DNA from: Hymenopus coronatus
Lineage: Eukaryota; Arthropoda; Insecta; Mantodea; Hymenopodidae
Direction of reading: 5' to 3'
NCBI GenBank assembly: GCA_030762935.1
Contig: CM060883.1
Coordinates: 97,414,001-97,478,000 of the forward strand
DNA length: 64,000 bases
In this document: piece after piece, positions 10,650 through 62,690 of the stretch
How positions within the stretch are numbered: position 1 is the first letter of the stretch
Layout of the letters: the number at the start of each line of letters is the position of its first letter
Position numbers and translations under genes: made by a program
The notes under the pieces: generated by a model
Databases searched by the model: none
What the model was told of the DNA's origin: nothing
What the model saw: the letters and a program-made list of their open reading frames with translations, nothing else

Positions 10650-11690
10650 CAAATATTAATATAAAAATAATAGTTGCAACCAATCTTCACTTATCTTTTG
10701 GAATCCTTGCCTGGACTAGTTTCGCAACGATTTCATTGCATTATCAACATATCCTTTTGGTCTCTTTTTTGATGTTGTTTATTTACACTGTTATGGTTAC
10801 TGCTACTAGGTGGATTGTGTACTAATGCATTGCTAACTACTGAAATCAAAACAAATTTGGTAAGAGTGTCAATTGGAGGTATATCAAAATTCATTGCATG
10901 ATTTCTATACTTTAATATAAATATTTTCTCCCAAACCATTAAATCTATGGGCCCATTTAAGTGTTTTAATAATTTAACATCTGGATTTATTTCATGATTA
11001 AATTTCCAAAAATGTTCTGCTACAGCTGATTTATCAATCTGTTTGTATTTAATATTCCTAAAGTGTTCTTTTACTCTGATTTCCAAATGCCGTTTAGTCT
11101 TACCAATATAAACAAGGTCACAATTTAAACAGTTTAATTGATAAATGCCAGATTTTTTATTTTTTGAAATTTCATCCTTTTTAGAAAAGCCTAACAAATT
11201 TTTTATACTATATTTATTTTGAGGAACCAATATTATGCCATGCTCTTTGAAAATATTAGTGAATTTTTTATTTGCCCAAGGGTGATAAGTAAATTTTTTA
11301 AAAATGTAATTATCTTTTATTTTCTTAAGCGTAGAAATATCTTTAATAGCTTTTTGATATTTAAACTTCTCAATTTTTTTATTTATAAAATCAGTATTAA
11401 AACCATTAATTAAAGCAGTGTTAATAATGTGTTTATATTCTTTATAGAATTCATCTTTATTAAGGGGTAAATTAATTAACCTATAAATTAAACTATTAAA
11501 AACAGCAAATTTATGTGAAAAAGGGTTAAAGCCATTATTTTTTTTTTATATAATTATCAGTGTGGGTTTGCTTTCTGTATATTCCAAAATTCAATTTATT
11601 GTCTTTTTTTATTATTTTTAAATCCAGGAAAGGGAGATAACCATCACTTTCAGTTTCTAATGTAATTTTAAAATTCACATTACTGAACTG
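10650..11690 (-). mobile_element. Penelope-like element, truncated (RT end + GIY-YIG endonuclease)
   Basis: Reading 5'->3' on the minus strand: the RT tail LPFLDLKIIKKDNKLNF and IYRKQTHTDNYI (about 11640-11550), a basic linker, then a GIY-YIG domain in the ORF ending at 10733. The latter shows SGIYQLNCLNCDLVYIG, KTKRHLEIRVKEHF, AVAEHFWKFNHEI and WEKIFILKYRNH. That RT-to-GIY-YIG order is diagnostic of endonuclease-bearing Penelope-like elements. The frame stays open from about 11690 to 10733 without a clear ATG, so the element is 5'-truncated where the 47-bp minisatellite begins. The domain is intact in sequence; the rest of the RT is missing. A hammerhead-like motif lies at its 3' end. Confidence 0.85.
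10700..10754 (-). ncRNA. Hammerhead-ribozyme-like motif in Penelope 3' end
   Basis: On the minus strand: TTGATAA (for core CTGANGA), a 6-bp stem GCAATG/CGTTGC around loop AAAT, then GAAAC, a minimal helix III (AC-TA-GT) and cleavage-site C (GAAACTAGTC), with partial helix I pairing GGAT...ATTCC and TG...CA outside. Penelope-like elements are known to carry minimal type-I hammerhead ribozymes in their terminal repeats, which is where this lies. C3 is T and G8 is A here, so this copy is probably inactive. Confidence 0.5.
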
Positions 11691-14600
11691 TAACATCTGA
11701 CTCAGTCTCCAGGCAGGCCACCATCATTACTGAACTGTAACAACTGATTGGGTATCCGTAAGGCCACCAACATTACTGAACTGTGCCAACTGACTAAGTC
11801 TCCAGGCAAGCCACCATTATTACTGAACTGCAACAACTGATTGGTTATCCTAGCAGGCCACCACCATTACTGAACAGTGACAACTGATTGGGTATCCGTA
11901 AGGCCACCAACATTACTGAACAGTGACAACTGACTGAGACTCCAGGCAGGCCACCACCATTACTGAACTGCAACAACTGATTGGTTATCCTAGCAGGCCA
12001 CCATCATTACTGAACTGTAACAACTGATTGGGTATCCGTAAGGCCACCAACATTACTGAACTGTGCCAACTGACTAAGTCTCCAGGCAAGCCACCATTAT
12101 TACTGAACTGCAACAACTGATTGGTTATCCTAGCAGGCCACCACCATTACTGAACAGTGACAACTGATTGGGTATCCGTAAGGCCACCAACATTACTGAA
12201 CAGTGACAACTGACTGAGACTCCAGGCAGGCCACCACCATTACTGAACTGTAACAACTGATTGGGTATCCGTAAGGCCACCAACATTACTGAACAGTGAC
12301 AACTGACTGAGACTCCAGGCAGGCCACCACCATTACTGAACAGTGACAACTGACTGAGACTCCAGGCAGGCCACCACCATTACTGAACTGTAACAACTGA
12401 TTGGGTATCCGTAAGGCCACCAACATTACTGAACAGTGACAACTGACTGAGACTCCAGGCAGGCCACCACCATTACTGAACTGTAACAACTGATTGGGTA
12501 TCCGTAAGGCCACCAACATTACTGAACAGTGACAACTGACTGAGACTCCAGGCAGGTCACCATCATTGCTGAACTGTAACAACAGAGTGGTTATCCAGGC
12601 CGGCCACCATCATTACTCAACTGTAACAACTGACTGGGTATCCAGGCAGGACACCACCAATACTGAACTGTGACAATTGACTGGGTATCCAGCCAGGCCA
12701 CTATCATTACTGCACTGTCACAACTGATTGGGTATCTAGGCAGGCCACCATCATTACTGAACTGTGCAAACTGACTGAGTATCCAGGCTGCCACCATCAT
12801 TACTGAGCTGTGAAAACTGACTGAGTATCCAGACAAGCCACCAACATTACTGAGCTGTGACAACTGACTGAGTATCCAGACAGGCCACCATAATTACTGA
12901 ACTGGTACAACTGACTGAGTATCCAGACAGGCCGCCATCAATACTGAACTTTAACAACTGACTGGGTATCCAGGCAGGCCATGACTATTACAGAACTGTG
13001 ACAACTGACTGAGTATACAGGCAGGCCACCACCATTACTGAAATATAACAACTGGCTGGCTATCCAGGCAGTCCGCCATGATTGCTGAATTGTGACAACT
13101 GACTGGGTATCCAGGCAGGCCACTATCATTGCTGAATTGTGGAAACTAACTGGGTATCAAGCAGTCCACCATCATTACTGAACCATGAAAACTTACTGGG
13201 TGTCCAGGCAGGCCACCACCATTACTGAAATATAACAACTGACAGGGTATCCAGGCAGTTCACCATCATTACTGAACTGTAACAACTGACTGAGTGTCCA
13301 GGCAGGCCACTATCATTGCTGAACTGTGAAAACTGACTGGGTATCCAGGCAGGTCACTATCATTGGTGAACTGTGAAAGCTGACCGGGTATCAAGACAGG
13401 CCACCACCATTACTGAAATATAACAACTGACAGGGTATCCATGCAGGCCACCACCATCACTGAACTGTGAAAACTGACTGGGTATCCAGGCAGGCCACCA
13501 CCATTATTGAAATATACAACTGACAGGGCATCCAGGCAGGCCACCATCATTTCTGAACTGTGAAAACTGACAGGGTATCCAGGCAGGCCACCACCATTAC
13601 TGAACTGTGAAAACTGACAGGGTATCCAGGCAGGCCACCTTCATTACTGAACTGTGAAAACTGACTGGGCATCCAGGCAGGCCAACACCATTACTGAACT
13701 GTTAAAACTGACAGGGTATCCAGGCAGGCCACCACCATTACTGGACTGTGAAAACTGACTGGGTATCCAGGCAGGCCACCACCATTACTTAATTGTGAAA
13801 ACTGACACGTTATCCAGGCAGGCCACAACCATTACTGAAATATAACAACTGACTGGGTATCCAGGCAGGCCACCATCATTACTGAACTGTGACAACTGAC
13901 TCGGTATCCAGGCAGGTCTCTATCATTAATGAACTGTAACAACTGACTGGGTATCCAGGCAGGCCACCATCATTGCTGAACTGTTACAATTGACTGAGTC
14001 TCCAGGCAGGCCACCATCATTACTGAACTGTAACAACTGACTGGGTATCCAGGGAGGCCACCACCATTACTGAACTGTAACAACTGACTGGGTATCCAGG
14101 GAGGCCACCATCATTACCGAAATGTGACAGCTGACTCGGTATCCAGGCAGGCCACCATCATTACTGAACTGTAACATCTGACTGGGTATCCAGGCAGGCC
14201 ACCATCATTACTGAACTGTAACAACTGACTGGGTATCCAGGCAGGCCACCACCATTACTGAACTGTAACAACTGACTGGGTATCCAGGGAGGCCACCATC
14301 ATTACCGAAATGTGACAGCTGACTCGGTATCCAGGCAGGCCACCATCATTACTGAACTATAACAACTGACTGGGTATCCAGGCAGGCCACCATCATTGCT
14401 GAACTGTAACAACTGACTGGGTATCCAGGCAGGCCACTATCATTGCTGAACTGTAACAACTGACTGGGTATCCAGGCAGGCCACTATCATTGCTGAACTG
14501 TAACAACTGACTGGGTATCCAGGCAGGCCACTATCATTACTGAACTGTGACAACTGACTGGGTTTCCAGGCTGGCCACCATCATAACTGAACTGTGACAA

Positions 14601-17600
14601 CTGACTGGGTATCCAGGGAGGCCACCATCATTACTGAACTGTAACAACTGACTGGGTATCCTGAGAGGCCACCATCATTACTGAACTGTAACAACTGACT
14701 GGGTATCCAGGGAGGCCACCATCATTACTGAACTGAGACAAATGACTCGGTATCCAGGCAGGCCACCATCATTACTGAACTGTAACAACTGACTGGGTAT
14801 CCAGGCAGGCCACCATCATTGCTGAACTGTTACAATTGACTGAGTCTCCAGGCAGGCCACCATCATTACTGAACTGTAACAACTGACTGGGTATCCAGGG
14901 AGGCCACCATCATTACTGAACTGTAACAACTGACTGGGTTTTCAGGGAGGATAACATCATTACTGAACTGTAACAACTAACTGGGTATCCAGTGAGGCCA
15001 CCATCATTACTGAACTGTAACAACTGACTGAATCTCCAGTCTGGCCACCATCATTACTGAACTGTAACAACTAACTGGGTATCCAGTGAGGCCACCATCA
15101 TTACTGAACTGTAACAACTGACTGAATCTCCAGTCTGGCCACCATCATTACTTAACTGTAACAACTGACTGTGTATACAGGAAGGCCGCCATCATTACTG
15201 AACTGTAACAACTGACTGGGTATCCAGGGAGGCCACCACCATTGCTGAACTGTAACAACTGACTGGGTATCCAGGCAGGCCACCACCATTGCTGAACTTT
15301 AACAACTGACTGGGTATCCAGGCAGGCCACCATCATTACTGAACTGTAACAAGTGACTGGGTATCCAGGCAGGCCACCATCATTACTGAACTGTAACAAC
15401 TCACTGGGTCTCCAGGCTGGCCTACATCATTACTGAACTGTAACAACTGACTATGTATCCAGGGAGGCCACCATCATTACTGAACTGTAACAATTGACTG
15501 GGTCTCCAGGCTGGCCACCATCATTACTGAACTGTAACAACTGACTGGGTTTCCAGGCTGGCTACCATCATTACTAACTGTAACAACTGACTGGGTATCC
15601 AGGGAGGCCACCATCATTACTGAACTGTAACAACTGACTGGGTTTCCAGGGAGGATAACATCATTACTGAACTGTAACAACTGACTGGGTCTCCAGGCTG
15701 GCCACCACCATTACTGAACTGTAACAACTGACTGGGTCTCCAGGCTGGCCACCATCATTACTGAACTGTAACAACTGACTGGGTCTCCAGGCTGGCCACC
15801 ATCATTACTGAACTGTAACAACTAACTGGTTATCCAGTGAGGCCACCATCATTACTGAACTGTGACAACTGACTCGGTATCCAGCCAGGCCACCATCATT
15901 ACTGAACTATAAAAACTGACTGGGTGTCCAGGCAGGCCACCACCATTACTGAACTGTGACAACTGACTGGGTCTCCAGGCTGGCCACCATCATTACTGAA
16001 CTGTGAAAGCTGACTGAGTATCCAGGCAGGCCACCTCCATTACAGAACTTTGACACCTGACTGAGTCTCCAGGCAGGCCCCCATCATTATTGAACTGTGA
16101 AAACTGACTGAGTATCCAGGCAGGCCACCATCATTACTGAACTGTGAAAACTGACTGGGTATCCAGGCAGCCCTCCCATCATTATTGAACTGTGAAAATT
16201 GACTGGGTACCCAGGAAGGCCACTATCATTGCTGAACTGCGAAAACTAACTGGATATCCAGGCAGTCCACCATCATTGCTGGACTGTAACAACTGACTCT
16301 GTATCCAGGCAGGCCACTATCATTGGTGAACTGTGAAAACTGACTGGGTGTCCATGCAGGCTACTATCATTTTTGAACTGTTAAAACTGACTGGGTATTC
16401 AGGCAGGCCACTATCTTTATCGAACTGTGAAAACTGACTGGGTATCCAGGCAGGTGACCACAATTACTGAACGGTAACAACTGACTGGATATCCAGGCAG
16501 GCCACTATCATTGCTGAACTGTAACAACTGACTGTGTATCCAGGCAGGCCACTATCATTGCAAAACTGTAAAAACTGACAAGGAGTCCAGTCACGCCACC
16601 ACCATTGCTGAACTGTAACAACTGACTGTGTATTCAGGAAGGCCACCACCATTGCTGAACTGTCACAACTTACTGTGTATCCAGGCAGGCCACTATCATT
16701 GCTGAACTTTGAAAACTGACTTGGTATCCAGGCAGGCCACTATCATTGCTGAACTGTGAAAACTGACTGGGTGTCCAGGCAGGCCGCCACCATTGCTGAA
16801 CTGTAACAACTGGCTGTGTATCCAGGCAGGCAACCATCATTGCTGAACTGTAACAACTGACTGTGTATCCAGGCAGGCCACCACCATTGCTGAACTGTAA
16901 CAACTGACTGGGTATCCAGGCAGGCCACCATCATTGCTGAACTGTAACAACTGACTGGGTATCCAGGCAGGCCACCATCATTGCTGAACTGTAACAACTG
17001 ATTGAGTCTCCAGGGAGGCCACCATCATTACTGAACTGTAACAACTGACTGAGTCTCCAGGCAGGCCACTATCATTGCTGAACTGTAACAACTAACTGGG
17101 TATCCAGGCAGGCCACCATCATAACTGAACTGTAACAAGTGACTGAGTCTCCAGGCAGGCCACCATCATTACTGAACTGTGACAACTGACTCGCTATCCA
17201 GGCAGGCCACCTTCATTACTGAACTGTAACAACTGATTGGGTATCCAGGCAGGTCACCATCATTTCTGAACTGTAACAACTGACTGAGTCTCCAGGGAGG
17301 CCACCATCATTACTCAACTGTGACAACTGTCTCGGTATCCAGGCAGGCCACCATCATTAATGAACTGTAACAACTGATTGGGTATCCAGGCAGGCCACCA
17401 TCATTACTGAACTGTAACAACTGATTGGGTGTCCAGGCAGGCCGCCATCATTACTGAACTGTGACAACTGACTGGATATCCAGGCAGGCCGCCATCATTA
17501 CTGAACTGATACAACTGATTGGGTATCCAGTTAGGCCGCCAACATTACTGAACTGTAACAACTGATTGGGTATCCAGGCAGGCCGCCATCATTACTGAAC

Positions 17601-18360
17601 TGTGACAACTGACTGGGTATCCAGGCAGGCCACCACCATCACTGAACTGTAACAAGTGACTGGGTATCCAGGCAGGCCACCACCATTGCTGAACTGTGTC
17701 ATCTGACTGAGTCTCCAGGCAGGCCACCACCATTGCTGAACTGTAACAACTGACTGGGTATCCAGGCAGGCCACTATCATTGCTGAACTGTAACAACTGA
17801 CTGGGTATCCAGGCAGGCCACTATCATTGCTGCAATTTAACAACTGACTGGGTATCCAGGCAGGCCACTATCATTACTGAACTGTAACAACTGACTGGGT
17901 ATCCAGGCAGGCCACTATCATTGCTGAACTGTAACAAATGTCTGGGTATCCAGGCAGGCCACTATCATTACTGAACAGTAACAACTGTCTGGGTATCCAA
18001 TCAGGCCACCATCATTGCTGAAATTTAACAACTGACTGAGTCTCCAGGCAGGCCACCATCATTACCGAACTGCAACAATTGACTGGGTATCCAGGCGGGC
18101 CACCATCATTGCTGAACTGTAACAACTGACTGGGGATCCAGGCAGGCCACCACCATTACTGAACTGCAACAACTGACAGAGTTTCCGGGCAGGCCACAAC
18201 CATTACTGAACTGTAACAACTGACAGGCTCTCCACGGCAGACCACAACCATTACTGAACTGTAACAACTGACAGTGTCTGCAAGCAGGCCACAACCATTG
18301 CTGAACTGTGACACCTGACTGGTTCTCCACAGCGGACCACAACCATTGCTGAACTGTGAT
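11690..18360. repeat. 47-bp minisatellite, about 140 units
   Basis: Head-to-tail monomers with words TATCCAGGCAGGCCACC, ATCATTACTGAACTGTAA and CAACTGACTGGG; the spacing between identical points is 47 bp. The left 900 bp shows higher-order structure: a block of six monomers recurs after 280 bp (11731 versus 12011), then 94/141-bp units. The rest is degenerate monomers. Because 47 is not a multiple of 3, the minus strand reads as a 47-residue peptide cycle over 141 bp, which explains the many spurious minus ORFs of 60-98 codons. The left edge meets the truncated Penelope-like element, and the right edge meets a possible transposase remnant. Confidence 0.97.
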
Positions 18361-44036: not shown

Positions 44037-45625
44037 TTAGTAAATATGCTTTTTGTTTGCTTCCCTCTTGTAGTCGAGTTGAGGAGCATCCAGCAAGCTT
44101 GACTCCACTTTCCCTGGTAATGTGTTTCCATTAATGATATTTGTTGGTGGAAATGCTCCCCATGTCCATTGCTTACTTCCCCACAACTTTAGGAAAACAT
44201 GTCGCATTCCATTTTCTGATAAGATGATAGCAAATTGTAACAAGGTCCTCGTTTGTGTCCCAAAAAGTTGTTTACGACTTCTCTAAAGGAAATCCATGCC
44301 TCTCTCTCAACATCATTTAAGATGTTTTCACATATCTCATCTTGGTGAACTTGACGAATCTGTGGGCCAACAAAAACTCCTTCCTTTAACTTGGCCTCGC
44401 TTATTCTTGGAAATTTTGTAATTAGGATTTTAATACCATTTCAGTCCAACTTTTTAGCTAGGCTTTTGATGAGTCCAAGTTTTTATGTAGTGGAGGAATT
44501 AAAATGTTCTTAGATTCCATCAGAGGTTCATGTTTAACATTAATTTTTTCAGTTTTCACAACTTGACGTAATGGCCATTGCTTTTTTATGAAATGCAAAA
44601 CTCTATCTTTACTGTCCCATTCATGTATGAAATAACAGTATTTAGTGTAACCTAGTTGGAGTCCAGTAACTATTGTAATCAAATTGGATTAATTAAAGTG
44701 GTGTGCGTATTAACACACACTTCACTTTTAATGTACAGGACAACTGTTTCGCAGACTGTTGCCCGCACCCTCAGCTGTTGGACCACTACTGCGGGTTTGG
44801 ATTCCAAGTTGAGGTTGTGGGTGTGTTGGTTGTGGTGGCATCTGTTGAGACTTGTTAAGCAATCCTTAGGGGTGGAACTCCATGTTCATCAATGTGTGGC
44901 CGTATTTGTGGATTAGATTTTCTCCCATGCTGATAATTGAAACGGATTTGAAAGTTCTTTCAATAGTTTGATGTTCAGGTTGATTTCATGGTGTGCTACT
45001 GCAGATTTGTCCGGCTGTTTTGACATGATGTGTCCTCAGTGTGTGTTAATACATACCACTTTAATTAATCCAATTTGATTATGCCTTCACTGTAAGCAGC
45101 TTCAAAATTATACAATTATAATATTGTAATTACTTTGAAAACTTCATATATTTTCTATTTATACATGTCATAATGAATTGAATCAAAAAGAAGTTTCAGG
45201 CTGCCATGTGATTCCTTCATGTGCATGGAGTAACCAATAGGAATTGATGGCATGGACTAATACAGCTTTGAGAATTAATTTTGAAGCATCTATAAACATC
45301 AATCTGCCATTGATCAGAGATGTGATTAATGTTTAGAGCAGTCAATAAGCCACTCACATCACTAAAACAGCTTCCTCAGAAGAATATTTCTCAAGATGTT
45401 TCTGATGGTTGTCAGCAACATAGTTCCATTGTTGCAACCTGGAGGCTAACATCTCGGCCTGGGCTATAGAAAGTTCCAGGTCTCTGACTAAATCATTTAA
45501 TTCACTAAGAGTAATTTTGTGATGTTCAGATTTAACATCCAGTACAGAGTCAGATTCTGTAGATATGGAGGTTGTGGATCACAATGTCTAAGGATGTTGG
45601 CACAGGTAGCTCATCACTAAGGGTG
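44037..45625 (-). pseudogene. Transposon-like gene of a widespread arthropod family, split by a MITE
   Basis: Minus reading across frames. N-terminal: ITLSELNDLVRDLELSIAQ and EMLASRLQQWNYVADNH (about 45540-45400), then LMFIDASKLILKAVLVHA. After the MITE: MITIVTGLQLGYTKYCYF, EWDSKDRVLHFI, ILIPPLHKNLD, KFPRISEAKLKEGVFVGPQI, EAWISFREVVNNFLGHKRG, then a frameshifted NGHGEHFHQQISLMETHYQ with GKWSQ. I recognise this block order from large numbers of uncharacterised insect, spider and fish proteins that behave like a transposable element, but cannot name a curated family. Many stops and shifts; no function. Confidence 0.6.
44676..45081. mobile_element. MITE with ~45-bp terminal inverted repeats
   Basis: Left end TAATCAAATTGGATTAATTA...GTGGTGTGCGTATTAACACACACT. 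The right end is its reverse complement with one mismatch and a 2-nt gap. 406 bp in total, no transposase. It splits the reading of the surrounding pseudogene (sequence of the same family lies on both sides), which fixes it as an insertion. TA at the ends would fit a Tc1/mariner-type duplication. Confidence 0.85.
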
Positions 45626-45639
45626 CAGGACGAGCAGAG

Positions 45640-45950
45640 GAATGTATCCTGGGATATACAAGCCATCTTTTTATATTTCATCAGACCCCAGACCAGGATA
45701 ATGGGCAAGGACATCACTTATGTACTCATGCATGTTAGGACGCCTGTATTTTCCAACCCATCAGTACTTGTTTCATTCTCAGGGAATTTACTTGTATAGT
45801 ATGTTGCAAGAAGTGAAAAATGCTTTCAAAAAAGCACAAAATTGATAGTGAGTGCATGAAATACAATGGGTGTTGGCTCAGTAAAGCAGCTTGTGAACAT
45901 GTGTTAAAAAAGGATACTAACCATCTACTCTCTATATGCTTATAGAGCAA
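45640..45950 (-). other. Probable 5' part of the transposon-like pseudogene and debris
   Basis: Non-coding by inspection. It may include decayed 5' sequence of the pseudogene at 44037-45625, and upstream debris of the non-LTR fragment at 45953. The 75- and 92-codon ORFs here show no domain. Confidence 0.35.
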
Positions 45951-45952
45951 TA

Positions 45953-46285
45953 ATGTTTGTAATTGACAAGTGTGAACAAATAAAAAATAAACAAATGTAT
46001 GAATACAATACAAGAGGCAACATGAACTATTATAGATGTAATGTAAATAAAACTGTATCAGTGAAAGATGTACAATATCTAGGAATTAAGCTTTTTAACA
46101 AGTTACCCCCAAAAATTAAAGCAATCGCAGAGGTGTCAAAACGACAATTTAACTTAAAATTGAAGGCATATCTGTTAAATAGATGTTTATATGATTTGGA
46201 TGAGCTATAAATTATGACTTTGTACAAATGTATATATGAAATGACGTGTCTAAAATCAATGTATTGATAAACTGGACGAAATAAA

Positions 46286-46357
<72 letters not shown>

Positions 46358-46358
46358 G
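45953..46358 (+). mobile_element. 5'-truncated non-LTR element, RT C-terminus plus (TTA)n tail
   Basis: The ORF to 46210 reads NKQMYEYNTRGNMNYYR, GIKLFNKLPPKIKAIAE, LKAYLLNRCLYDLDEL-stop: the C-terminus of Jockey/RTE-like RT (YNTR ... G.K.FN.LP..IK ... L...L....FY.LDE). It is followed by an AT-rich 3' UTR, AAATAAATA, and a pure TTA tract from about 46284 to 46357. The ORF end is intact; everything upstream is missing. Confidence 0.8.
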
Positions 46359-46414
46359 ATTTGTGAAGATGTATTACAGTTACAAAGACATTAGCAGACA
46401 AAACTTTCAGCCTG

Positions 46415-48135
46415 CAGTTGAACCTGTTTTATATGTAACCCAGTTGCAAGCTGAGCGGGTGGCTTTTGGCCTTGGAAACAAAAGACAATAATATGTTTGC
46501 TGACAGAGCACGACAATGCAGCAACAGATGGGAAGTAAAGATAAAAATGTTCGTTATCTGGTGTTTATTGTTAAACAGCCGTTTGTCTTTCAGTTCTCAG
46601 TTGCTTTTAATCAGCCATGGAGAACAGAAAAAGGAAATGTTATATGCTAGATCAGAAAGTGAAATTCATACCAGATGTGGAGCTAAGTCCACACAAAACC
46701 AAAACTGAAATTGCTTCAGACTTAGGAATTGCTTATTCCACGCTATGTACAGTCATCAATAACAAGGATGTTATTTTGGATGAGTTTTTAAATTTTGGTG
46801 CCAAATCAACAAAACGCAGCCGTCAGCAGGAAGGGAGATATGCTGATTTGGAAATGGCACTTCCAGCAGAAATGGCCTACAGCTCTACCAGTCAGTGACA
46901 ACATGCTGAAAGCAAAACCGATAGCTTTAACTAAAATAATGAATTCAAGGCTTCATGAAGATGGTTGCAAGGAGTTAAAGATCGTCATGGAAAACAATAA
47001 GCGGCGAATTGGATGGCATCACGGTACAACACTGGAAGAAAGAGGTTCTAACAGGAATCATAAGGGGTTATCAGCATCAAAACATCCACAACTGTGATGA
47101 GACTGGCCAGCAAGACATTAGCTGACTCATGCCATGGAGGGAAGAAAAGTAAAATTCATGTAACAGTTCTTGCCACCAATTCAGATGGATCAGACAAACT
47201 TCCCAAGAAAGTCCAAGAATCTGAGGTATTTTAAGAGTGTGAAAACAATACCTACGGAATATGAATCCAATAGGAAGTCTTGGATGACTATGATTTTAAT
47301 TGAACAGAAGTTAAAATGTAAAAGAAACAGAAGAAGATCCTTCTTTTTATGGATCGATGTACAGCACATCCACTTCAAATAATTTTGGAAAATGCTCGAG
47401 GGGAATTTTTCCCTCTTAACTCTACAGACATTTCATTTGGACATCATTGCAAATTTCAAAGTTCATTATAGAAAAATGCTGGTTGAACATTTAATATCAC
47501 TGACTGATGCAGGAAAAGAAAATCTCGCCTTTATTTGCTACAAGCCATGGAATTTATTTTGGCTGTCTGGAAGCAGGTGTCATCCGCCACAATCAAACAC
47601 TGCTTCATTAAATCTGGTGTCTTGCAGGAAGATATTGGAAGTGATGAGCCTGTAATGAGCTAGCTCTACCGGAGAGGAACTACAGGATGTAGAGATTGTT
47701 GCTGATGTGTGCTAAAAAAGTTGAAAAGTGAACCAGCTCCAAGTGACACTGACAATAATGTGGATGACGACTCAAATCTTGAAATACCTAAGGTGAGTGA
47801 AGTGTTAAGTGCAATAAATGTGAGTAGGCGTTACATCAGTGCTAAAAGTGGTAGTGAAAAAGCTCTAAATTCATTAATAAGCTTGCAAAGTAAGCTTTAT
47901 GCACTTAGTGCAAGAAAACTGAAACAAGCTAAATTAACTGATTTCTTTAAAGCAGGACCAAGTTCAAAATAATGTTTTCTTCGTACGTGTCTTTGTTATT
48001 GTTAAATTTTGCATATGTAGGCCCACTGTATTGCCTTTTTTTAAATATATTGGATGCATTATCAAAATCTCAGTTGTAAGTAATTCTGAGTTACAAGTAA
48101 TCTTCCTTTGCTCCAGTGATATTCAGGTTCAACTG
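46415..48135 (+). mobile_element. Tigger (pogo-like) DNA transposon
   Basis: Ends CAGTTGAACCTG (46415) and its inverse CAGGTTCAACTG (ending 48135), with TA to the right (48136-48137) and TG to the left. 1721 bp. Internal coding remains on the plus strand match a pogo/Tigger transposase. Confidence 0.88.
46617..47972 (+). pseudogene. Tigger transposase, broken
   Basis: MENRKRKCYMLDQKVKFIPD with KTKTEIASDLGIAYSTLCTV is the first CENP-B-type HTH, followed by RYADLEMAL...WFQQK-type words (second HTH, frameshifted near 46800). HNCDETGQ carries the first DDE Asp; KKILLFMDRCTAHPLQI the second; HCKFQSSL..KNAG and LLQAMEFILAVWKQVS follow in broken frames. The C-terminus VSEVLSAINVSRRYISAKS ... LKQAKLTDFFKAG-stop is a good Tigger ending (HxLxKQxxITDFF-like). 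At least three frameshifts and several stops. Confidence 0.85.
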
Positions 48136-48214
48136 TAGTTTGATAAGTTTAATGATCGTGAGCATATTGTGAAGGCAAAAGAACTCTGTAACAAATTCAC
48201 TTACCAACTGAATT

Positions 48215-51148
48215 TCTAATTCAGGGTAAAAATTTGAACAAAGAAATGTTACAAAAGCAATTTACAAGGTTTCAAAATTTATAGTAGAGCATGCAAAACC
48301 ATTTGCAGAAAGAGAATTTCTAAAAAAAAGTGTCTTGCAGTTGTTGCTGAAACATTGTGTTTCGAAAAAGCAGATTTGTTCAAATCTGTTTCTCTATCAA
48401 GAAACACCCTAAGCAGGCATGTTGAAGAAGTAGCTGCTAGTGTTAGGCATCAACAGATTGAGAAGAGGAAAATGTTTGCGTGTTATGGCAGTACTGCACA
48501 ATTATGGGTGTTTGTTAGACTTCACAATTACAGAAGAACTTCTAGGAGTGATGGAACCACAAAAGGTAGTCGCATATTTGTTGAGGTTATAAAAATGTGG
48601 ATAGTATGGAACTTAAATGGGACTACAGATGGTGTTCCCAACATGGCAGGAGTTTACCACAGAATGGCAGAGCTGTTAAAGAAAAAAGTCATGGCTTATG
48701 GGAGGCAAGTGCAGAAGTTGCATTGCATTATACATCAGGAGGTGCTATGTGCAAAGGCAGTTAATCTCCATGTTGTTATGCCGATGGTTTCAAAATTAAT
48801 TAAGTTGAATTCGTAGCAAGGCATTAAACCACTGATGAAATGAACAGCCAGAGATATGGTGGCTCAGTCATTAGCTGGACTTTTTTGCTGTGCAGAAGGA
48901 ATTTCTGGAAGAGAAAGCAAACGCTGAGAGGTCGTCCTGCTTAGCATTTCTCGTTGACATGACCAGACATTTCAATGACCAAAACCTGACACTGCAAGGG
49001 CAAAGTGATGCATAGAGTGCTATTACATTTTTCAAGAGACAAGTTTCTTTGAAGAACTGGGCGCATTTTCCTAAAGACCAATATCCAGAACCTTGCTTTG
49101 ATACTGATTCATTTGTAAAGTTAGTTCAGGACAATGAAGAAGATTTTGTAAATTTGGATTCTAAAATGTGTCTGTTTACATCGCCTTTCACTTTCGATGA
49201 AAAACCACCAGAGTTGCTACAATTAGAGCTCCTAGACTTTCAGTGTGATGATGAAATAAAAGGGCACTTCAGCCCTAAGGACCTTCCCAGTTTCTAGAAA
49301 TTACTGCCTGAAGAAAAATAGCCAGTACTGAAGAAACAAGCACAAGGTTTGCTGTGCATGCGCGTGTAAGATATGTTGCTCCTGAGCACATCTGAGCAGA
49401 AAAACCCAGACATCAGCAACTTATTAAGATCTAGCTTGAAGATTGACATCCCCAAGATGTGTTGCTCCTGAGCACATCTGAGCAAAACCCAGACATCAGC
49501 AGCTCATTAAGATATAGCTTGATGATGGACATCCCCAAGATGTGTTGCTCCTGAGCACATCTGAGCAAAACCCAGACATCAGCAGCTTATTAAGATATAG
49601 CTTGATGATGGACATCCCCAAGATGTGTTGCTCCTGAGCACATCTGAGCAAAACCCAGACATCAGCAGCTTATTAAGATCTAGTTTGATGATGGACATCC
49701 CCAAGATGTGTTGCTCCTGAGCACATCTGAGCAAAACCCAGACATCAGCAGCTTATTAAAATATAGCTTGATGATGGACATCCCCAAGATGTGTTGCTCC
49801 TGAGCACATCTGAGCAAAACCCAGACATCAGCAGCTTATTAAGATATAGCTTGATGATGGACATCCCCAAGATGTGTTGCTCCTGAGCACATCTGAGCAA
49901 AACCCAGACATCAGCAGCTTATTAAGATCTAGTTTGATGATGGACATCCCCAAGATGTGTTGCTCCTGAGCACATCTGAGCAAAACCCAGACATCAGCAG
50001 CTTATTAAGATCTAGTTTGATGATGGACATCCCCAAGATGTGTTGCTCCTGAGCACATCTGAGCAGCAAAACCCTGGCATCAGCAACTTATTAAGATTTA
50101 GCTTGAGTGATGGACATCCCCAAGATGTGTTGCTCCTGAGCACATCTGAGCAGCAAAACCCAGACATCAGCAACTTATTAAGATCTAGCTTGATGATTGA
50201 CATCTCCAAGATGTGTTGCTCCTGAGCACATCTGAGCAAAACCCAGACATCAGCAACTTATTAAGATCTAGCTTGATGTTTGACATCTCCAAGATGTGTT
50301 GCTCCTGAGCACATCTGAGCAGCAAAACCCAGACATCAGCAACTTATTAAAATCTAGCTTGATGATTGACATCTCCAAGATGTGTTGCTCCTGAGCACAT
50401 CTGAGCAAAACCCAGACATCAGCAGCTTATTAAGATATAGCTTGATGATGGACATCCCAAGATGTGTTGCTCCTGAGCACATCTGAGCAAAACCCAGACA
50501 TCAGCAGCTTATTAAGATATAGCTTGATGATGGACATCCCAAGATGTGTTGCTCCTGAGCACATCTGAGCAGCAAAGCCCAGACATCAGCAACTTATTAA
50601 GATTTAGCTTGAGTGATGGACATCCCCAAGATGTGTTGCTCCTGAGCACATCTGAGCAGCAAAACCCTGGCATCAGCAACTTATTAAGATTTAGCTTGAG
50701 TGATGGACATCCCCAAGATGTGTTGCTCCTGAGCACATCTGAGCAGCAAAACCCTGGCATCAGCAACTTATTAAGATTTAGCTTGAGTGATGGACATCCC
50801 CAAGATGTGTTGCTCCTGAGCACATCTGAGCAGCAAAACCCAGACATCAGCAGCTTATTAAGATCTAGCTTGAGTGATGGACATCCCCAAGATGTGTTGC
50901 TCCTGAGCACATGTGATCAAATCCCAGACATCAGCAAATTATTAAGATTTAGCTTGAGTGATGGACATCCCCAAGATGTGTTGCTCCTGAGCACATCTGA
51001 GCAACAAAACCCTGGCATCAGCAACTTATTAAGATTTAGCTTGAGTGATGGACATCCCCAAGATGTGTTGCTCCTGAGCACATGTGATCAAATCCCAGAC
51101 ATCAGCAGATTATTAAGCTCAAAACACCACTATTACACTTCTCATTAA
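48215..51148 (+). pseudogene. hAT transposase, broken, with amplified C-terminus
   Basis: Frames in order: CLAVVAETLCFEKADLFKS, VSLSRNTLSRHVEEVAASV, QLWVFVRLHNYRRTSRSDG with TTDGVPNMAGVYHRM, KLHCIIHQEVLCAKAVNLHV, then LEEKANAERSSCLAFLVDM, SLKNWAHFPKDQYPEP, PPELLQLELLDFQCDDEIKG, LPEEK. These match hAT transposases of the ZBED5/GTF2IRD2 group (blocks around TTDGAPAM, YHCIIHQE, QLELIDLQCD). The dimerisation end PVLKKQAQ ... STSEQ.NPDISNLL is then repeated about 21 times and closes RLLSSKHHYYTSH-stop at 51148. Stops at 49296 and after LPEEK, and deletions upstream, make it inactive. Confidence 0.82.
49370..51110. repeat. 83/87-bp satellite derived from hAT transposase C-terminus
   Basis: About 21 units marked by GATGTGTTGCTCCTGAGCAC at 49370, 49456, 49539, 49622 and so on to 51065. 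Left-half units are mostly 83 bp. Several right-half units are 87 bp (29 codons): they add 3 nt (GAGCAGCAAAAC for GAGCAAAAC) and 1 nt (CTTGAGTGATGG for CTTGATGATGG). The 87-bp run from 50546 is in one open frame of 200 codons, reading DVLLLSTSEQQNPDISNLL then RFSLSDGHPQ, and ends in the natural transposase C-terminus. Confidence 0.95.
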
Positions 51149-51372
51149 GTGACTAATTTTAATTGTCGTTTTATACTTATAAAACAAAGCTCTACAGAAA
51201 TGTCCAACAGACCGTATAAATGTATTCAAAAGCATTATTTATAAGTTTATACCCTAATTTGCTGTTTTTACATTCCATAAAATATTATATTTATATAAAT
51301 TTTCTCTATGGCCCGTAACCAATTGTTTGAGTTAGTGGCCTTACATGTAAAAAGGTTTGGGCAGCCCTGTAC

Positions 51373-52593: not shown

Positions 52594-53034
52594 GGGAGCT
52601 AAAGTAAGTAAAGAGGTTTTTATTGGTGAAGTAAAATGCTGGGGAGCTAAAGTAGGTAAAGAGGTTTTTATTGGTGAAGTAAAATGCTGGGGAGCTAAAG
52701 TAGGTAAAGAGGTTTTTATTGGTGAAGTAAAATGCTGGGGAGCTAAAGTAGGTAAAGAGGTTTTTATTGGTGAAGTAAAATGCTGGGGAGCTAAAGTAGG
52801 TAAAGAGGTTTTTATTGGTGAAGTAAAATGCTGGGGAGCTAAAGTAGGTAAAGAGGTTTTTATTGGTGAAGTAAAATGCTGGGGAGCTAAAGTAGGTAAA
52901 GAGGTTTTTATTGGTGAAGTAAAATGCTGGGGAGCCAAAGTAGGTAAAGAGGTTTTTATTGGTGAAGTAAAATGCTGGGGAGCTAAAGTAAGTAAAGAGG
53001 TTTCTATTGGTGAAGTAAAATGCTGGGGAGCTAA
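52594..53034. repeat. 48-bp tandem array, nine near-identical units
   Basis: Unit GGAGCTAAAGTAGGTAAAGA + GGTTTTTATTGGTGAAGTAA + AATGCTGG. Nine copies with only a few substitutions, mostly in the edge units. 48 is a multiple of 3, so frames persist: the plus strand gives a 16-residue repeat (CWGAKVGKEVFIGEVK) in a 151-codon ORF, and two minus frames are open as well (178 and 143 codons). No evidence of transcription or a start context; most likely recent tandem growth of non-coding DNA. Confidence 0.95.
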
Positions 53035-55984: not shown

Positions 55985-58900
55985 AACCTCACATTTTAAA
56001 AAACCTCCCAAGTTTTGCTTTGTAGTTTGGGGAGCTCAATCCCGCAGCTTTGCTTTGTAGCTTAGGACCGTCTCAATCCCTCAGCTATTCCTCATAGCTA
56101 TGGGCCCTCAATCCCTCAGCTATATGTCATAGCTGAAGGCCATCAATCCATTGGCTTAGCTGAGTAGCTTATTGCCTTCTGCCCTTCAGTTATGCTTAGT
56201 AACTTGAGGCCCTCAATCCTTCAGCTATGCTGTGTAGCCAAAGGCCCTCAATTCCTCAGCTGTGCTTTGTAGCTTAGGTCCCACATTCCCTCAGCTATGC
56301 TTTGTAGCTTTGGGCCCTCAATCCCTCAGCTATGCTTTGTGGCTTAGGACCCTCAGTCCCTCAGCTTTACTTTGTAGCTTAGGGCCCTCAGTCCCTCAGC
56401 TATACTTTCCACCTTAGGCACTCAATCCCTCAGCTTTAATTTCCACCTTAGGCACTCAATCCCTCAGCTATGCTTTGTATCTTAAGGCCCTCAATCCCTC
56501 AGCTATACTTTCCACCTTAGGGCACTCAATCCCTCAGCTATACTATCCACCTTAGGGCACTCAATCCCTCAGCTATGCTTTGTATCTTAAAGCCCTCAAT
56601 CTCTAAGCTATACTTTCCACCCTATGGCTCTCAATCCCTTAGCTATGCTTTGTATCTTAAGGCCCACAATACCTCAGCTATACTTTCCACCTTAGGGCCC
56701 TCAATCCCTCAGCTATACTTTCTACCTTACGGCCCTCAATCCCTCAGCTATGCTTTGTATCTTAAGGCCCTCAATCCCTCAGCTATACTTTCCACCTTAG
56801 GGCACTCAATCCCTCAGCTATACTTTCCACCTTAGGGCACTCAATCCCTCAGCTATGCTTTGTATCTTAAGGCCCTCAATCCCTCAGCTATACTTTCCTT
56901 AGGGCACTCAATCCCTCAGCTATACATTCCACCTTAGCGCACTCAATCCCTCAACTATACTTTCAACCTTAGGGCACTCAATCCCTCAGCTATGCTTTGT
57001 ATCTTAAGGCCCTCAATCCCTCAGCTATACTTTCTACCTTTTGGCCCTCAATCCCTCAGCTATAATTTCCACCTTAGGGCACTCAATCCCTCAGCTATGC
57101 TTTGTATCTTAAGGCCCTCAATCCCTCAGCTATACTTTCTACCTTTTGGCACTCAATCCCTCAGCTACACTTTCCACCTTAAGGCACTCAATCCCTCAGC
57201 TATACTTTCCACCTTAGGGCCCTCAATCCCTCAGCTATGCTTTGTATCTTAAGGCCCTCAATCCCTTAGCTATACTTTCCACCTTATGCCTCTCAATCCC
57301 TCAGCTATGCTTTGTATCTTAAGGCCCACAATACCTCAGCTATACTTTCCACCTTAGGGTCCTCAATCCCTCAGCTATGCTTTCTACCTTAGGGCCCTCA
57401 ATCCCTCAGCTATACTTTCCACCTTAGGGCCCTCAATCCCTCAGATATACTTTCCACCTTAGGGCCCTCAATCCATAACTATACTTTGTAGCTTAGAGCC
57501 CTCAAGACCTCAGCTATACTTTCCACCTTAGGGCCCTCAATCTCTCAGATATACTTTCCACCTTAGGGCCCTCTATCCCTCAGATATACTTTCCACCTTA
57601 GGGCCCTCAATCCCTCAGTTAAACTTTCTACCTTATGGCTCTCAATCCCTCAGCTATACTTTCCACCTTAGGGCCCTCAATCCCTCAGCTATACTTTCCA
57701 CCCTAAGACCCTCAATCCCCCAGCTGTACTTTCCACCTTATGGCTCAATCCCTCAGCTATACTTTCCACCTTAGGGCCCTCAATCCATAGCTATACTTTG
57801 TAGCTTAGAGCCCTCGAGACCTCAGCTATGCTTTGAAGCATAGGTTTCTCAATCCCTAAGCTATACTTTCTAGCTTAGGACCCTCAATCCCTCAGCTATA
57901 CTTTTTAGCTTAGGGCCCTCAATCCCTCAGCTATACTTTGAAGCTTAGGCCCTCAATTTCTCAGCAATACTTTTTAGCTAAGGCCCCTCAATCCCTCAGC
58001 TATACTTTGAAGCTTAGGGCCCTCGATCCCTCAGCTATACTTTGTAGCTTAGGCCCCGCAATCCCGCAGCTAAACTTTGTAGCAGAGGGCCTTCAATCCC
58101 TCAGCTGTGCTATATAGCTTAGGGCCCTCAATCCCTCAGCTATACTTTGGAGCTTAAGGCCCTCAATCCCTCAGCTATACATTGTAACTTATGCCCCTCA
58201 ACCCCTCAGATATGCTTTGTAGTTTAGGGCCCAATCCCACAGTTATACTTTGTAGCTAAGGGTCCTCAATCACTAAGCTATGTATTGTAGCTTGGGGCCC
58301 TCAATACCTCAGCTATAAGTTGTAGCTTAGGGTACTAATCCCTCGGCTATTCTATGTAGCTTAGGGCCCTCAATCCTCTAAGCTGTACCTTCCACCTTAG
58401 GGCTCTCAATCTCTTTGCTGTACTTTTCACCTCAGGGTCCTCAATCTCTCCGCTATGCTCTGTAGCTTTGGGCCCTCAATCCTTCAGCTAAGCGTTGTAG
58501 CTTAGGTTCCTCAATTCCACAGCTATCCTTTGTAGCTTAAGGCACTCTATCACTCAGCTATACTTTTTAGCTTGAGTCCTTAATCCCTCAGCTATACTTT
58601 CCACCTTAGGGCCCTTTATCCCTCAGATATGTTTTGAAGCTTAGGGCCCTCAATCCTTCAGCTATACTTTGTAGCCTAGTGCCCTCAATCACTCAGCTAT
58701 ACCTTCCACCTTAGGGCCCTCAATCCCCCAGCTATGCTTTGTAGCATAGGGGTCTCAACACCTCAGCTATATTTTGTAGCTTAGGGCCATCGATCTCTCT
58801 GCTATACTTTGTAGCTTAGGGCCCTCAATCTCTCAGCCATGCTTTGTAGCTTAGGGCCCTCAATCCCTCAGTTATGATTTGCAGCTTAGGGCCCTCAATC

Positions 58901-61900
58901 CCTCAGCTATACTTTGGAGCATAGGTCGCCCAATCCTTCAGCTGTGCTTGTAGCTTGGGGCCCCAATCCCTCAGCTTTATTTTCCACCTTAGGCCCTCAG
59001 TCCTACAGATATTCTTTGTAGCTTGGGGCCCACAATCCCTCAGCAATGCTTTGTAGCTTGGGGCCCCGAATCCCTTGGCTTTACTTTCCACACTAGGGCT
59101 CTCAGTCCTACAGATATACTTTGTAGCATGGGGCCCTCAATCCCTCTGCTATACTTTCCACATTAGAGCCCAAAATCCAATAGATATAATTAGGGCATTC
59201 AACCCCTCAACTATATTTTGCACCTTAGAGCCCAAAATCCCATAGCTATACTTAGGGCCCTCAACCCCTTAGCTTTACTTTCCACTTAGAGCCCAAAATT
59301 CCATAGCTATACTTAGGGCCCTCAACCCCTCAGCTATACTTTCCACTTTAGAGCCCAAAATCCCATATCTATATTTAGGGCCTTCAACCCCTTGGCCATA
59401 CTTTGTAGCCTAGGGCCCTAAAACCCTCAGCTATGCTTTGTAGCTTAGGACCCTCAATCCATTCAGCTTTACTTTTGTAGCATAGGGCTCTCAACCCCTC
59501 AACTATACTTTCCACTTTAAGCCCTCAATCTCTCAGCTACACTTTGTAGCTTAGGTCCTTCAATCCCACAGCAATACTTTCCACCTTATTTCCCTCAGTT
59601 CCTCAGCTAGGCTTGCTACCTTAGGGCCATCAATCCCTCAGCTAGGCTTTCTACCTTAAAGCCCTCAATCCCTCAGCTATACTTTGTTGCTTAGGTCCCT
59701 CAATTCCTTAGCTATTCTTTGTAGCTTACGTCCCTAAATCCCAGAGTTATACTTTGTCGCTTAGGGCCCTCATCCCTCAGCTATGCTTTCTACCTTAGGG
59801 CCCTCAATCCCTCAGCTATACTTTGTAGCTTAGGACCCTAATCCCTCAGCTATACTTTGTAGCTTAAGGCCCTCAATCCCTCAGCTGTACTTACCACCTT
59901 AGTGCCCTCAATCCCTCAGCTAAGCTTTCTATTTTAGGGCCCTCAATCTCTGAGCTATACTCTGTAGCTTAGGGCCCCCAATCCATCAGCTATGTATTGT
60001 CGCTTTGGGCCCTCAATCCCTCAGCAATGCTTTGTAGCTTAGGGCCCTAAATCCCTTAGATATACTTTGTAGCTTAGGGCCCTTAATCCCTCAGTTATGT
60101 TTTGCAGCTTGGGGCCCTCAGTACTTCAATTCTTTGTAGCCTAGGGGCCTCAATTCCTCAGCTATGTTTTGTACCTTGGGGCCCTCAATCCTTCAGCTAT
60201 GCTTCTTAGCTTAAGGCCCTCAATCCCTCAGGTAAGCCTTTTAGCTTAGGCCACTCAATCCCTTTGCTGTGCTTTGTATCTTAGGGCCCTCAATCCCCCA
60301 GCTATGCTTTGTAACTTAGGTCCGTATATCCCACACTTATGCTTTGTAGCTTGTGGCCCTCAATCCCTCAGCTATACTTTCCACCATATTGCCCTCAATC
60401 CCTCAGCAATAGGTTCCATCTTAGGGCCCTCTATCCCTCAGATATACTTTGTAGCTTAAGGTCCTCAATCCCTCAGCTAAACTTTGTAGCTTAGCACCTT
60501 CACTCCCTCAGCAATACTTTCTACCTTATGGCCCTCAAGCCTTCAGCTATACTTTGTAGCTTGGTGCCCTCAAGCCTTCTGCTATACTTTCCACCTAAGG
60601 ACCCTCAATCCCTCAGCTGTACTTTCCACCTTAGGGCCCTTCAATCCCTCAGCTATACTTTCCACCTTAGGGCCCTCAGTTATACTTTGTAGCTTGAAGC
60701 CCTCAATTACTCAGCTATACTTTCCACCTTATGGCTCTCAATCCCTCCGCTATACTTTGTAGCTTGAAGCCCTCAATCCCTCAGCTACACTTTCCAACTT
60801 AGGGCCCTTAATCCCTCAGCTATACTTTCTACTTAAGGGTCCGCAATCCCTCAACTATGCTTTGTTCCTTAATACCCTCAATCCCTGAGCTATATTTTCT
60901 ACCTTAGGGCCCTCAATCCCTCAGCTATACTTTGTAGCTTAGGGTCCTCAATCCCTCAACTATACTTTCCACTTTATGGCTTTCAATCCCTCTGCTATGC
61001 TTAGTAGCCTAGGGTCCTCAATTCCTCAGCTATGCTTTGTAACTTAGGGCCCTCAATCCCTCAATTATACTTTCCATCTTAGGGCCCTCATTCCCTCAGC
61101 TATATTTTCCAACTTAGGACCCTCAATCCCACAGCTATGATTTGTAGCTTAAGGCCCTCAATCTCTCAGCTATGCTTTCTAGCTTGGGTCTCCCAATCCC
61201 TCTGCTATGCTTTGTAGCTTGGGGCCCTCAATATCTCAGCTATACTTTTCACCTTAGGACCCTCAATCCCTCAGCTATGCTTTTAACTTAGGACCCTCAA
61301 TCCCTCAGCTATGCTTTTAACTTAGGGCCCTCAATCCCTTAGCTATGCTTTTAACTTAGGGCCGTCAATCCCTCAGCTATGCTTTTAACTTAGGGCCCTC
61401 AATCCCTCAGCTATGCTTTTAACTTAGGACCCTCAATCCCTTAGCTATGCTTTTAACTTAGGGCCGTCAATCCCTCAGCTATGCTTTTAACTTAGGGCCC
61501 TCAATCCCTCAGCTATGCTTTTAACTTAGGGCCGTCAATCCCTCAGCTATGCTTTTAACTTAGGGCCGTCAATACCTCAGCTATGCTTTTAACTTAGGGC
61601 CGTCAATCCCTCAGCTATACTTTTCACCTTAGGACCCTCAATCCCTCAGCTATACTTTTAACTTAGGACCCTCAATCCCTCAGCTATACTTTTCACCTTA
61701 GGACCCTCAATCCCTCAGCTATACTTTTCATCTTAGGACCCTCAATCCCTCAGCTATACTTTTCACCTTAAGACCCTCAATCCCTCAGCTATGCTTTTAA
61801 CTTAGGACCCTCACTCCCTCAGCTATGCTTTTAACTTAGGGCTATCAATCCCTCAGATATACTTTGTAGCTTAGGGTCCTCAATCTCTCAGTTATACTTT

Positions 61901-62690
61901 CCACCTTATGGCTCTCAATCCCTCTGCTATACTTTCCACCTTAGGACCCTCAATCCCTCAGCTATGCTTTTAGCTTAGGGCCATCAATCCCTCAGGTGTT
62001 CTTTGCAGCTTAGGGTCCCCAATCCCTCAGCTATGCTTTCCACCTTAGGGCCCTCAATCCCTCACTTGCTTTGTGGCTTAGGGTCCTCAATCCCTCAGCT
62101 ATGCTTTGTAGCCTAGGGTTCTCAATCCCTTAGCTATGCTTCGTAGCTTGGGGTCCTCAATCCCTCAGCTATTCCTCGTAGCTACGGGCCCTCAATCCCT
62201 TAGCTATATGTAGTAGCTGAAGGCCATCAATCCATCAACTATGCTCAGTAGCTTATTGCCCTCTTTCCTTCGGCTATATTTAGTACCTTGGGGCCCGCAA
62301 ACCCTCAGCTATGCTTTGTAGCTTAAGGCCCTCATTATCTCAGGTATGCCTTTGAGCTTAGGGTCCTCAATCCCTCAGCTATGCTTTATATCTAATGGCC
62401 CTCAATCCCTCAGCTATGCTTTGTAGTTTAAGTCCCTCAATCCCTGAGCTATGCTTTGTAGCTTAGGGCCCTCAATCCTTCAGCTAAACTTTGTATTTTA
62501 GTACCTTCAATCCCTCAGCAATACTTTGCACCTTAGGGCCCTCAATCCCTCAGATATAGTTCGTAGCTTATCGCCCTCAATACCTGAGATATACTTTGTA
62601 GCTTAGGGCCCTGAATCTCTCAGATATGGTTCGTAGCTTATCGCCCTCAATACCTCAGATATACTTTCCACCTTAGGAACCGCATGTGTT
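55985..62690. repeat. 35-bp satellite, about 190 units
   Basis: Head-to-tail units of 34-35 bp: CTCAATCCCTCAGCTATAC + TTTGTAGCTTAGGGCC. Distinct variants differ in the middle: TTTGTAGCTT, TTTCCACCTT, TTTGTATCTT and TTTTAACTT. Variants cluster: TTTCCACCTT/TTTGTATCTT alternate at 56400-57400, and the 34-bp TTTTAACTT form fills about 61260-61620. Small ORFs on both strands come from the 35-bp frame cycle. Adjacent similarity is highest in those blocks, indicating recent local amplification. Confidence 0.97.

Follow-up and report, generated by a model that had tools for sequence, protein, structure and literature searches.

A minisatellite of hAT transposase coding sequence, probably arisen in place in one decaying transposon copy

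How did a piece of hAT transposase coding sequence come to be repeated in tandem at the end of one transposon copy, and did the repetition begin in a working gene or in a dead one? The question arises in a window (the whole stretch of DNA analysed, 64,000 nucleotides; C4:97414001-97478000 of the 3.13-Gb assembly) in which a tandem array lies inside a broken transposase gene of the SPIN-DOC/GTF2IRD2 type. A tandem repeat can seldom be studied at its birth alongside the sequence it came from. In this genome, the ancestral sequence, the flanking direct repeat and the direction of most unit changes can be read from dozens of single-copy relatives, and parallel cases occur elsewhere in the same hAT element. 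The preferred reading, with a probability of about 0.88, is that one immobile and decaying hAT copy gave rise in situ to a private minisatellite, through the short direct repeat ATTAAG.

The array and its host copy

The features of the locus are the following (window positions, all on the plus strand unless indicated):

45726-45899, 5′ part of the hAT copy, with the N-terminal coding start (MLSKKHKIDSEC..., Met at 45820), from genomic copies and an HMM
45900-46361, insertion in the hAT copy, with an open reading frame at 45908-46210 and (TAT)n at 46286-46361
46415-48135, Tigger/pogo-like DNA transposon nested in the hAT copy, from its CENP-B_N domain and inverted ends
48138-49373, broken hAT transposase body with stops, frameshifts and internal deletions, from reading frames, homologs and genomic copies
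49350-49373, deletion junction at which about 30 residues (FGSTYxCEQ...LSDGHL) are gone, from an alignment of 40 homologs and 20 genomic copies
49368-51117, tandem array with a putative ancestral unit of 84 bp, from TRF, unit lengths and genomic copies
49460-50040, seven 83-bp units (u2-u8) with a -1 frameshift, from the unit alignment
50128-50382, units u10-u12, which keep the apparently ancestral Leu codon CTC at the H-L position, from unit site states
50531-51148, open stretch of 205 codons over u15-u21, without Met, from the list of open reading frames
51029-51148, terminal (native) C-terminal segment with the natural C-terminus SSKHHYYTSH and stop, from an alignment with the homolog P0090 and an HMM
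51149-51369, hAT 3′ UTR and 3′ TIR (CAGGGCTGCCCAAACC, complement strand, 51354-51369), from genomic copies

The broken transposase is encoded by the pieces 48138-49373 and 51029-51148 (tblastn homology spans 48139-49432 and 51029-51145). Its read-through translation has 86 homologs at E ≤ 1e-3, many of them named general transcription factor II-I repeat domain-containing protein 2. In a Pfam scan of five homologs, the Spin-doc zinc finger occurs in four (in one below its cut-off) and the PF05699 hAT dimerisation region in three. PF05699 has no match in the window pieces scanned, and its FGSTYxCE part, a block invariant or nearly so across 16 aligned homologs, is deleted from this copy; an HMM of the deleted block of about 30 residues finds its best match in the window at E = 0.022, at an unrelated place. 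The deletion lies at the left of the array, so that the first unit is truncated. Among six raw window pieces, CENP-B_N of the neighbouring element alone passed its Pfam cut-off.

The hAT N-terminus is split from the gene body by the insertion at 45900-46361, which is probably a non-LTR retrotransposon 3′ end bearing a TTA-type tail, and by the Tigger/pogo-like element (CENP-B_N at E = 2.2e-5 within 46611-46898; inverted ends CAGTTGAACCTG, with the exact ends read from the arms by eye). An N-terminal HMM built from 81 homologs locates the N-terminus at 45817-45942 (E = 9.7e-4). This 5′ part is matched by 23 of the 39 genomic hAT copies described below, with starts at 45726-45817 and ends at 45850-45899, and the body is partly matched by all 20 of the copies fetched first and by 36 of the full set of 39. 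The 5′ end of the window copy was not found; four genomic copies imply a position at 45400-45456, but similarity starts only at 45726 or later. The 3′ TIR is found in the window copy and the 5′ TIR is not; among the 23 other copies that match at the N-terminus, 4 have a 5′ TIR-like end (within 3 mismatches). At the 3′ boundary, with a query 31 bases longer, 12 of 20 copies end at 51368-51369 and none extends further. The sequence-only reading had placed the array exactly where the repeated segment belongs in the gene. On the right this is so, with the natural C-terminus, 3′ UTR and 3′ TIR following, but on the left about 30 residues are deleted.

In the array itself, TRF counts 20.7 copies with 94% matches, that is, 20 full units and then a terminal copy (u21) that reads into the stop codon at 51148; the copy number is that of one assembly. 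From u1 to u20 the lengths are 86, 83 (seven times), 87, 86, 83, 86, 82, 82, 87 (four times), 84 and 87 bp, with 14 distinct sequences among the 20 units. The sequence-only reading divided the array into an 83-bp left half and a mainly 87-bp right half; on the left u2-u8 have 83 bp, and on the right (u9-u20) 6 of 12 units have 87 bp. The window has 21 occurrences of a 24-base unit core when up to 3 mismatches are permitted, 19 of them exact and the other 2 each differing at two bases; the core is absent from all 100 shuffles of the control, with none expected by chance.

Read in frame, the unit gives RSSLSDGHPQDVLLLSTSEQ(Q)NPDISNLL, the C-terminal segment of hAT transposase, which aligns with GTF2IRD2-type hAT proteins at their very C-terminus (LSDRHLNDILLLSTSSIDPDIESLL in the crab Chionoecetes opilio, for instance). 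A C-terminal HMM (135 homologs) matches the array frame at E = 3.9e-33 summed over seven repeats, or 2.7e-7 for the best single repeat. At the terminal copy the match extends to position 38 of the model, and the copy shares 56% identity with the last 38 residues of P0090 (E = 3e-4). Pfam matches to the array peptide are weak and below their cut-offs. The unit, first described as the last part of the dimerisation domain, is indeed C-terminal but comprises the entire segment of 28-29 codons and not only STSEQQNPDISNLL; by hand alignment, it starts within the last stretch of the PF05699 match and continues past it.

One tandem locus among single-copy relatives

Searching the genome with the 83-bp unit (best 40 of 63 candidates scored) gives at least 60 matches, 21 in the array and 39 elsewhere. 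All 39 outside matches end at unit position 61 or earlier, the pattern that a lone segment running into the natural C-terminus would give, and all 39 loci are hAT 3′ ends by their 3′ UTR match, in agreement with an array seeded in situ from transposase coding sequence. The segment is single in 37 of them. The other two hold an additional non-tandem piece, partial and about 750 bp upstream in L028, separate and on the opposite strand in L034. A search with the hAT 3′ end (best 40 of 132 candidates scored) finds several unit matches at the window locus only; of its 19 new loci, 13 were checked as DNA and each has one segment. Within these best-candidate searches, the tandem array of the C-terminal unit is thus not seen in 52 other copies (39 + 13). 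Two observations that would speak against a hAT origin, copies lacking the C-terminal segment and a satellite without link to hAT, were looked for in these searches and neither was found.

A dispersed satellite has arrays at several loci; in these lower-bound searches only the window locus is tandem. As far as they reach, the word satellite in the sequence-only reading does not hold genome-wide, and the array is very probably a minisatellite private to one insertion. Among the proteins of two homolog listings (n = 197; one of them 120 of 925), the GSTYxC motif occurs singly in 146 and doubly in none. The protein P0190, a candidate for a double segment with two aligned pieces, was rejected, its tail showing one segment. 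The 205-residue array peptide, compared with 5.8 billion proteins, has no match at E ≤ 1e-3 among the 7993 candidates scored. In viral contigs, the unit core has no matches, and 28 stretches fit a pattern of the hAT profile with no confirmed relatives.

The outside copies L040-L044 (G000:C21:461-467 Mb) fall into two sets, L042-L044 alike and L040-L041 alike, seemingly identical in the aligned stretches; the likeness suggests a recent segmental duplication.

Ancestral unit, birth and expansion

With the 39 genomic hAT copies outside the window as DNA outgroup, the consensus segment is 84 bp long (28 codons). At the site of the insertion that distinguishes 87-bp units, 36 of the 39 copies have the 84-bp spacing, three differ by one base and none has +3. 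The base lost from the 83-bp form is G in 32 copies, another base in four and a gap in three. At the substituted sites, the copies have T (Leu) in the H-L codon (35/39), C (Ser) at the site after Arg (34/39) and A (Asp) at the P-D site (37/39). In 138 homologous proteins, the H-L position is L in 134, V in three and I in one, and the spacing is the shorter form in 109, with one residue more in 27. Spacing in the genomic copies and in the proteins marks 87 bp as +3 and 83 bp as -1, so that, judged by these comparisons, both forms appear derived from 84 bp.

Pro at the H-L position in every unit is ruled out, the Leu codon CTC standing at the end of u10-u12; these three also have the -1, as well as a G>T substitution creating TGA in the old frame. 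The units nearest to the consensus are u10, u11 and u18, with 5 changes each. The only full unit of 84 bp, u19, has 8 changes from the consensus, 4 of them common to the terminal copy, so that the unit which would keep the ancestral length is not, at its other sites, the most ancestral one. Derived states are frequent in the 87-bp units (the insertion in 6/6, PG in 4/6, Phe in 5/6). In a short-block HMM (blocks u1, u14 and u15 scored from a shorter start), three Leu-bearing blocks reach 25.4-28.1 bits and six of the eight 83-bp units 21.7; u19 scores 19.2, the terminal copy 18.3 and u1 14.0; four of the six 87-bp units score 14.0, the other two 17.7 and 19.1 (u18).

The +3 and -1 indels occur among the units in all four combinations, and 11 site-coding pairs in all show four combinations, which means that units exchanged sequence or mutated in parallel. 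The unit tree suggested earlier was built and has modest supports; given the mixing or parallel change, the site states are preferred. Counting 86-bp units, deriving 83 bp from 84 (one -1) or from 87 (-3 and -1) takes three events either way. Two substitutions are common to all 20 units and date the first duplication poorly.

These states bear on the order proposed in the sequence-only reading, in which the 87-bp in-frame form was the older, amplified in an open transposase frame, with 83-bp derivatives spreading later. The -1 of the 83-bp units is indeed derived, so that a frame-keeping form came earlier; u18, an 87-bp unit, differs from the 83-bp consensus by two indels only, and neither u19 nor the terminal copy scores clearly above it. 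However, the inserted codon is in none of the 39 genomic copies, 36 of which have exactly the 84-bp spacing, the 87-bp units bear derived states and four of the six are the lowest on the C-terminal HMM, and of amplification in a working element there is no sign, the array being absent from all 52 other copies looked at. This order is very improbable.

For the preferred in-place origin, the borders of the segment are informative. In the 39-copy consensus, the 84-bp segment is flanked by the 6-bp direct repeat ATTAAG (GCATTAAGATCT ... CTTATTAAGCTC), and the array units join at this repeat, as TTATTAAG followed by ATCT. At random breakpoints, at least 6 matching bases have a P of about 0.0017 (analytic). 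A direct repeat of 5-10 bp around an ancestral single-copy motif, as described for minisatellites, is thus present in the consensus; the upstream ATTAAG is deleted in the window copy, and the repeat is read from the consensus of the other copies. By strict strings in fixed windows, ATTAAGAT is found upstream in 9 and ATTAAGCT downstream in 20 of the 39 copies, which are old and diverged; TTAAGA and TTAAGC are both kept in 8.

In the ancestor, two ATTAAG repeats with a spacing of 84 bp would have enclosed 28 codons close to the coding end. A first tandem duplication may have come about by replication slippage or unequal exchange at ATTAAG. Unequal crossing-over, slippage and gene conversion would then have expanded and mixed the units to 21, as block repeats and mosaic units suggest, with the +3 insertion (87 bp) and the -1 deletion (83 bp) arising inside the array. 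A three-unit block is repeated (u2-u4 and u5-u7, lag-3 distances 2, 0, 0), identical neighbouring units occur, and units grow less alike with distance (Spearman 0.28, a value that 10 of 5000 permutations reach). The mean pairwise difference between units is 4.6% vs. 10.3% between the window 3′ UTR and the family consensus, a rough comparison of coding sequence with UTR. From these values, the hAT insertion probably predates most of the array, though coding and UTR rates may differ.

Amplification could instead have taken place in an active element, through transposase-linked breaks, the copies being spread by transposition. Published models tie transposase activity to array birth, but no second array locus is found among the 39 + 13 other copies and the window copy is heavily decayed, so that this course is very improbable. 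That a shorter true array was misassembled to this length is extremely unlikely. Short tandem arrays can be mis-sized in assemblies and one assembly is the source, but the 14 distinct unit sequences lie in ordered sub-blocks and the window has no N.

As noted in the sequence-only reading, a frame of some 200 codons is open in the right part of the array; it runs over 205 codons and has no Met. A unit without stops and with a length divisible by three is expected to give an open frame. Among the full units, 7 of 20 have a length that is a multiple of 3, with a longest run of six. The open frame is a remnant of a coding unit whose length is still divisible by three, and the array most likely encodes nothing functional. 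Variants among the in-frame units are 2 synonymous vs. 8 nonsynonymous (hand count), the neutral expectation being 21-30% synonymous; no synonymous bias is seen. As a control, an unrelated array at 52594-53034 (48 bp × 9.2) is open in three of six frames. Maintenance of the in-frame units by selection, as a repetitive C-terminal protein domain, can practically be discounted: 205 codons are open and protein repeats within a hAT frame exist (the hobo TPE repeats), but the frame lacks Met and is broken by upstream units, the conserved FGSTY block is deleted upstream, the synonymous fraction is that expected without selection and the unrelated 48-bp array is likewise open, in three frames. This 48-bp array is without known coding origin.

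Known systems and parallel arrays

The birth of minisatellites at short direct repeats is already published. First repeats of some minisatellites are ascribed to slippage or unequal crossing-over at flanking repeats of 5-10 bp, as in Alu (PMC6947457), and in a survey of human minisatellites 7,276 of 31,472 are attributed to transposable elements (PMC3389668). For arrays derived from maize CRM, a search of the consensus for such flanking short repeats detected none (PMC3648361); the short-direct-repeat route is thus not universal. A table of repeats derived from transposable elements includes coding sources and a case from a CACTA transposase (PMC9659126).

Alu-type minisatellites (PMC6947457, PMC3389668) share with the window array a short direct repeat bounding the unit in the parent element and later expansion by slippage, conversion or unequal exchange. 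In contrast to them, the parent here is the coding region of a DNA transposon, and the hAT family gives several independent cases at different positions. The satellite CficCl-61-40 of Chenopodium (from tnp2 of the CACTA element Jozin; PMC7320549) was likewise seeded by a transposase fragment of a DNA transposon, with the parental fragment as first monomer; it has a unit of about 40 bp and is a major genome-wide satellite, whereas the window array has a hAT parent, an 84-bp unit and one locus seen. In the hobo TPE repeats of Drosophila (PMC4807377), variable and in-frame tandem repeats also lie in a hAT transposase frame, but with 9-bp units, in active elements and common across copies and populations, whereas the window copy is single and dead. 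PROsat, Pvc 20 and HinfI (LINE-1 ORF2 or CR1 ORF2; PMC9659126, same table) also take their unit from the coding part of a transposable element; their parents are Class I and, unlike the window array, they are described as satellites. For an array of the hAT C-terminus, no report was found in the literature searched. The window array is a clear but basically ordinary birth of a minisatellite inside a dead transposon. Its features favour the short-direct-repeat model and show that selection is not required for such an array to have an open frame.

Other copies of the family were surveyed together with the window copy (53 in all, comprising 39 taken with some 3 kb of upstream sequence, 13 flanked on either side by some 1.5 kb, and the window copy). 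In L046 (G000:C9:106183818-106187678, reverse), another hAT coding stretch forms a 44-bp × 15.2 array at oriented positions 1502-2168. The stretch is bounded by ATTTCTGG, present as an 8-bp direct repeat when up to 14 other copies are aligned into a consensus, and the array unit is found at that locus only. The consensus segment between the ATTTCTGG copies is longer, so that L046 has also lost some bases inside. L018 (G000:C20:8971299-8975154, reverse) has a 79-bp × 3.9 array at oriented positions 2240-2550, with a unit that matches hAT sequence in 24 other targets (searched: 38 other copies and the window hAT body). L066 (G000:C12:35866988-35867322 with flanks) has at 1833-2099 a tandem duplication of 130 bp of hAT coding sequence (2.1 copies, 97% match), which ends within a few bases of the start of the 84-bp segment; it is a two-unit stage. 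At the borders of L018 and L066 there are imperfect short repeats only.

Arrays or duplications of four different coding segments therefore occur in at least 4 of the 53 copies (window, L046, L018 and L066), and two of the four are bounded by perfect direct repeats of 6-8 bp in the family consensus. Tentatively, dead copies of this hAT family could be replicated and independent minisatellite nurseries in the host, a reading that is possible without being the probable one. If true, it may reflect an unusually high genome-wide rate of duplication and expansion bounded by short repeats, and minisatellite birth could be measured copy by copy.

Repeats of 84 bp beside the hAT copies L068 and L069 were rejected as hAT arrays on account of a zinc-finger-like look; presumably they are C2H2 zinc-finger genes. 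In L016 (G000:C5:6189248-6193103), a 30-bp × 16.2 array at 1810-2294 abuts the hAT body, and its unit has no match in the other hAT copies. Many other minisatellites lie upstream of the 79-bp array in L018. In the window, listed tandem arrays and simple repeats occupy 17.4 kb of the 64 kb, and there are very long minisatellites at 11678-18357 (47 bp × 142) and 56018-62667 (35 bp × 192).
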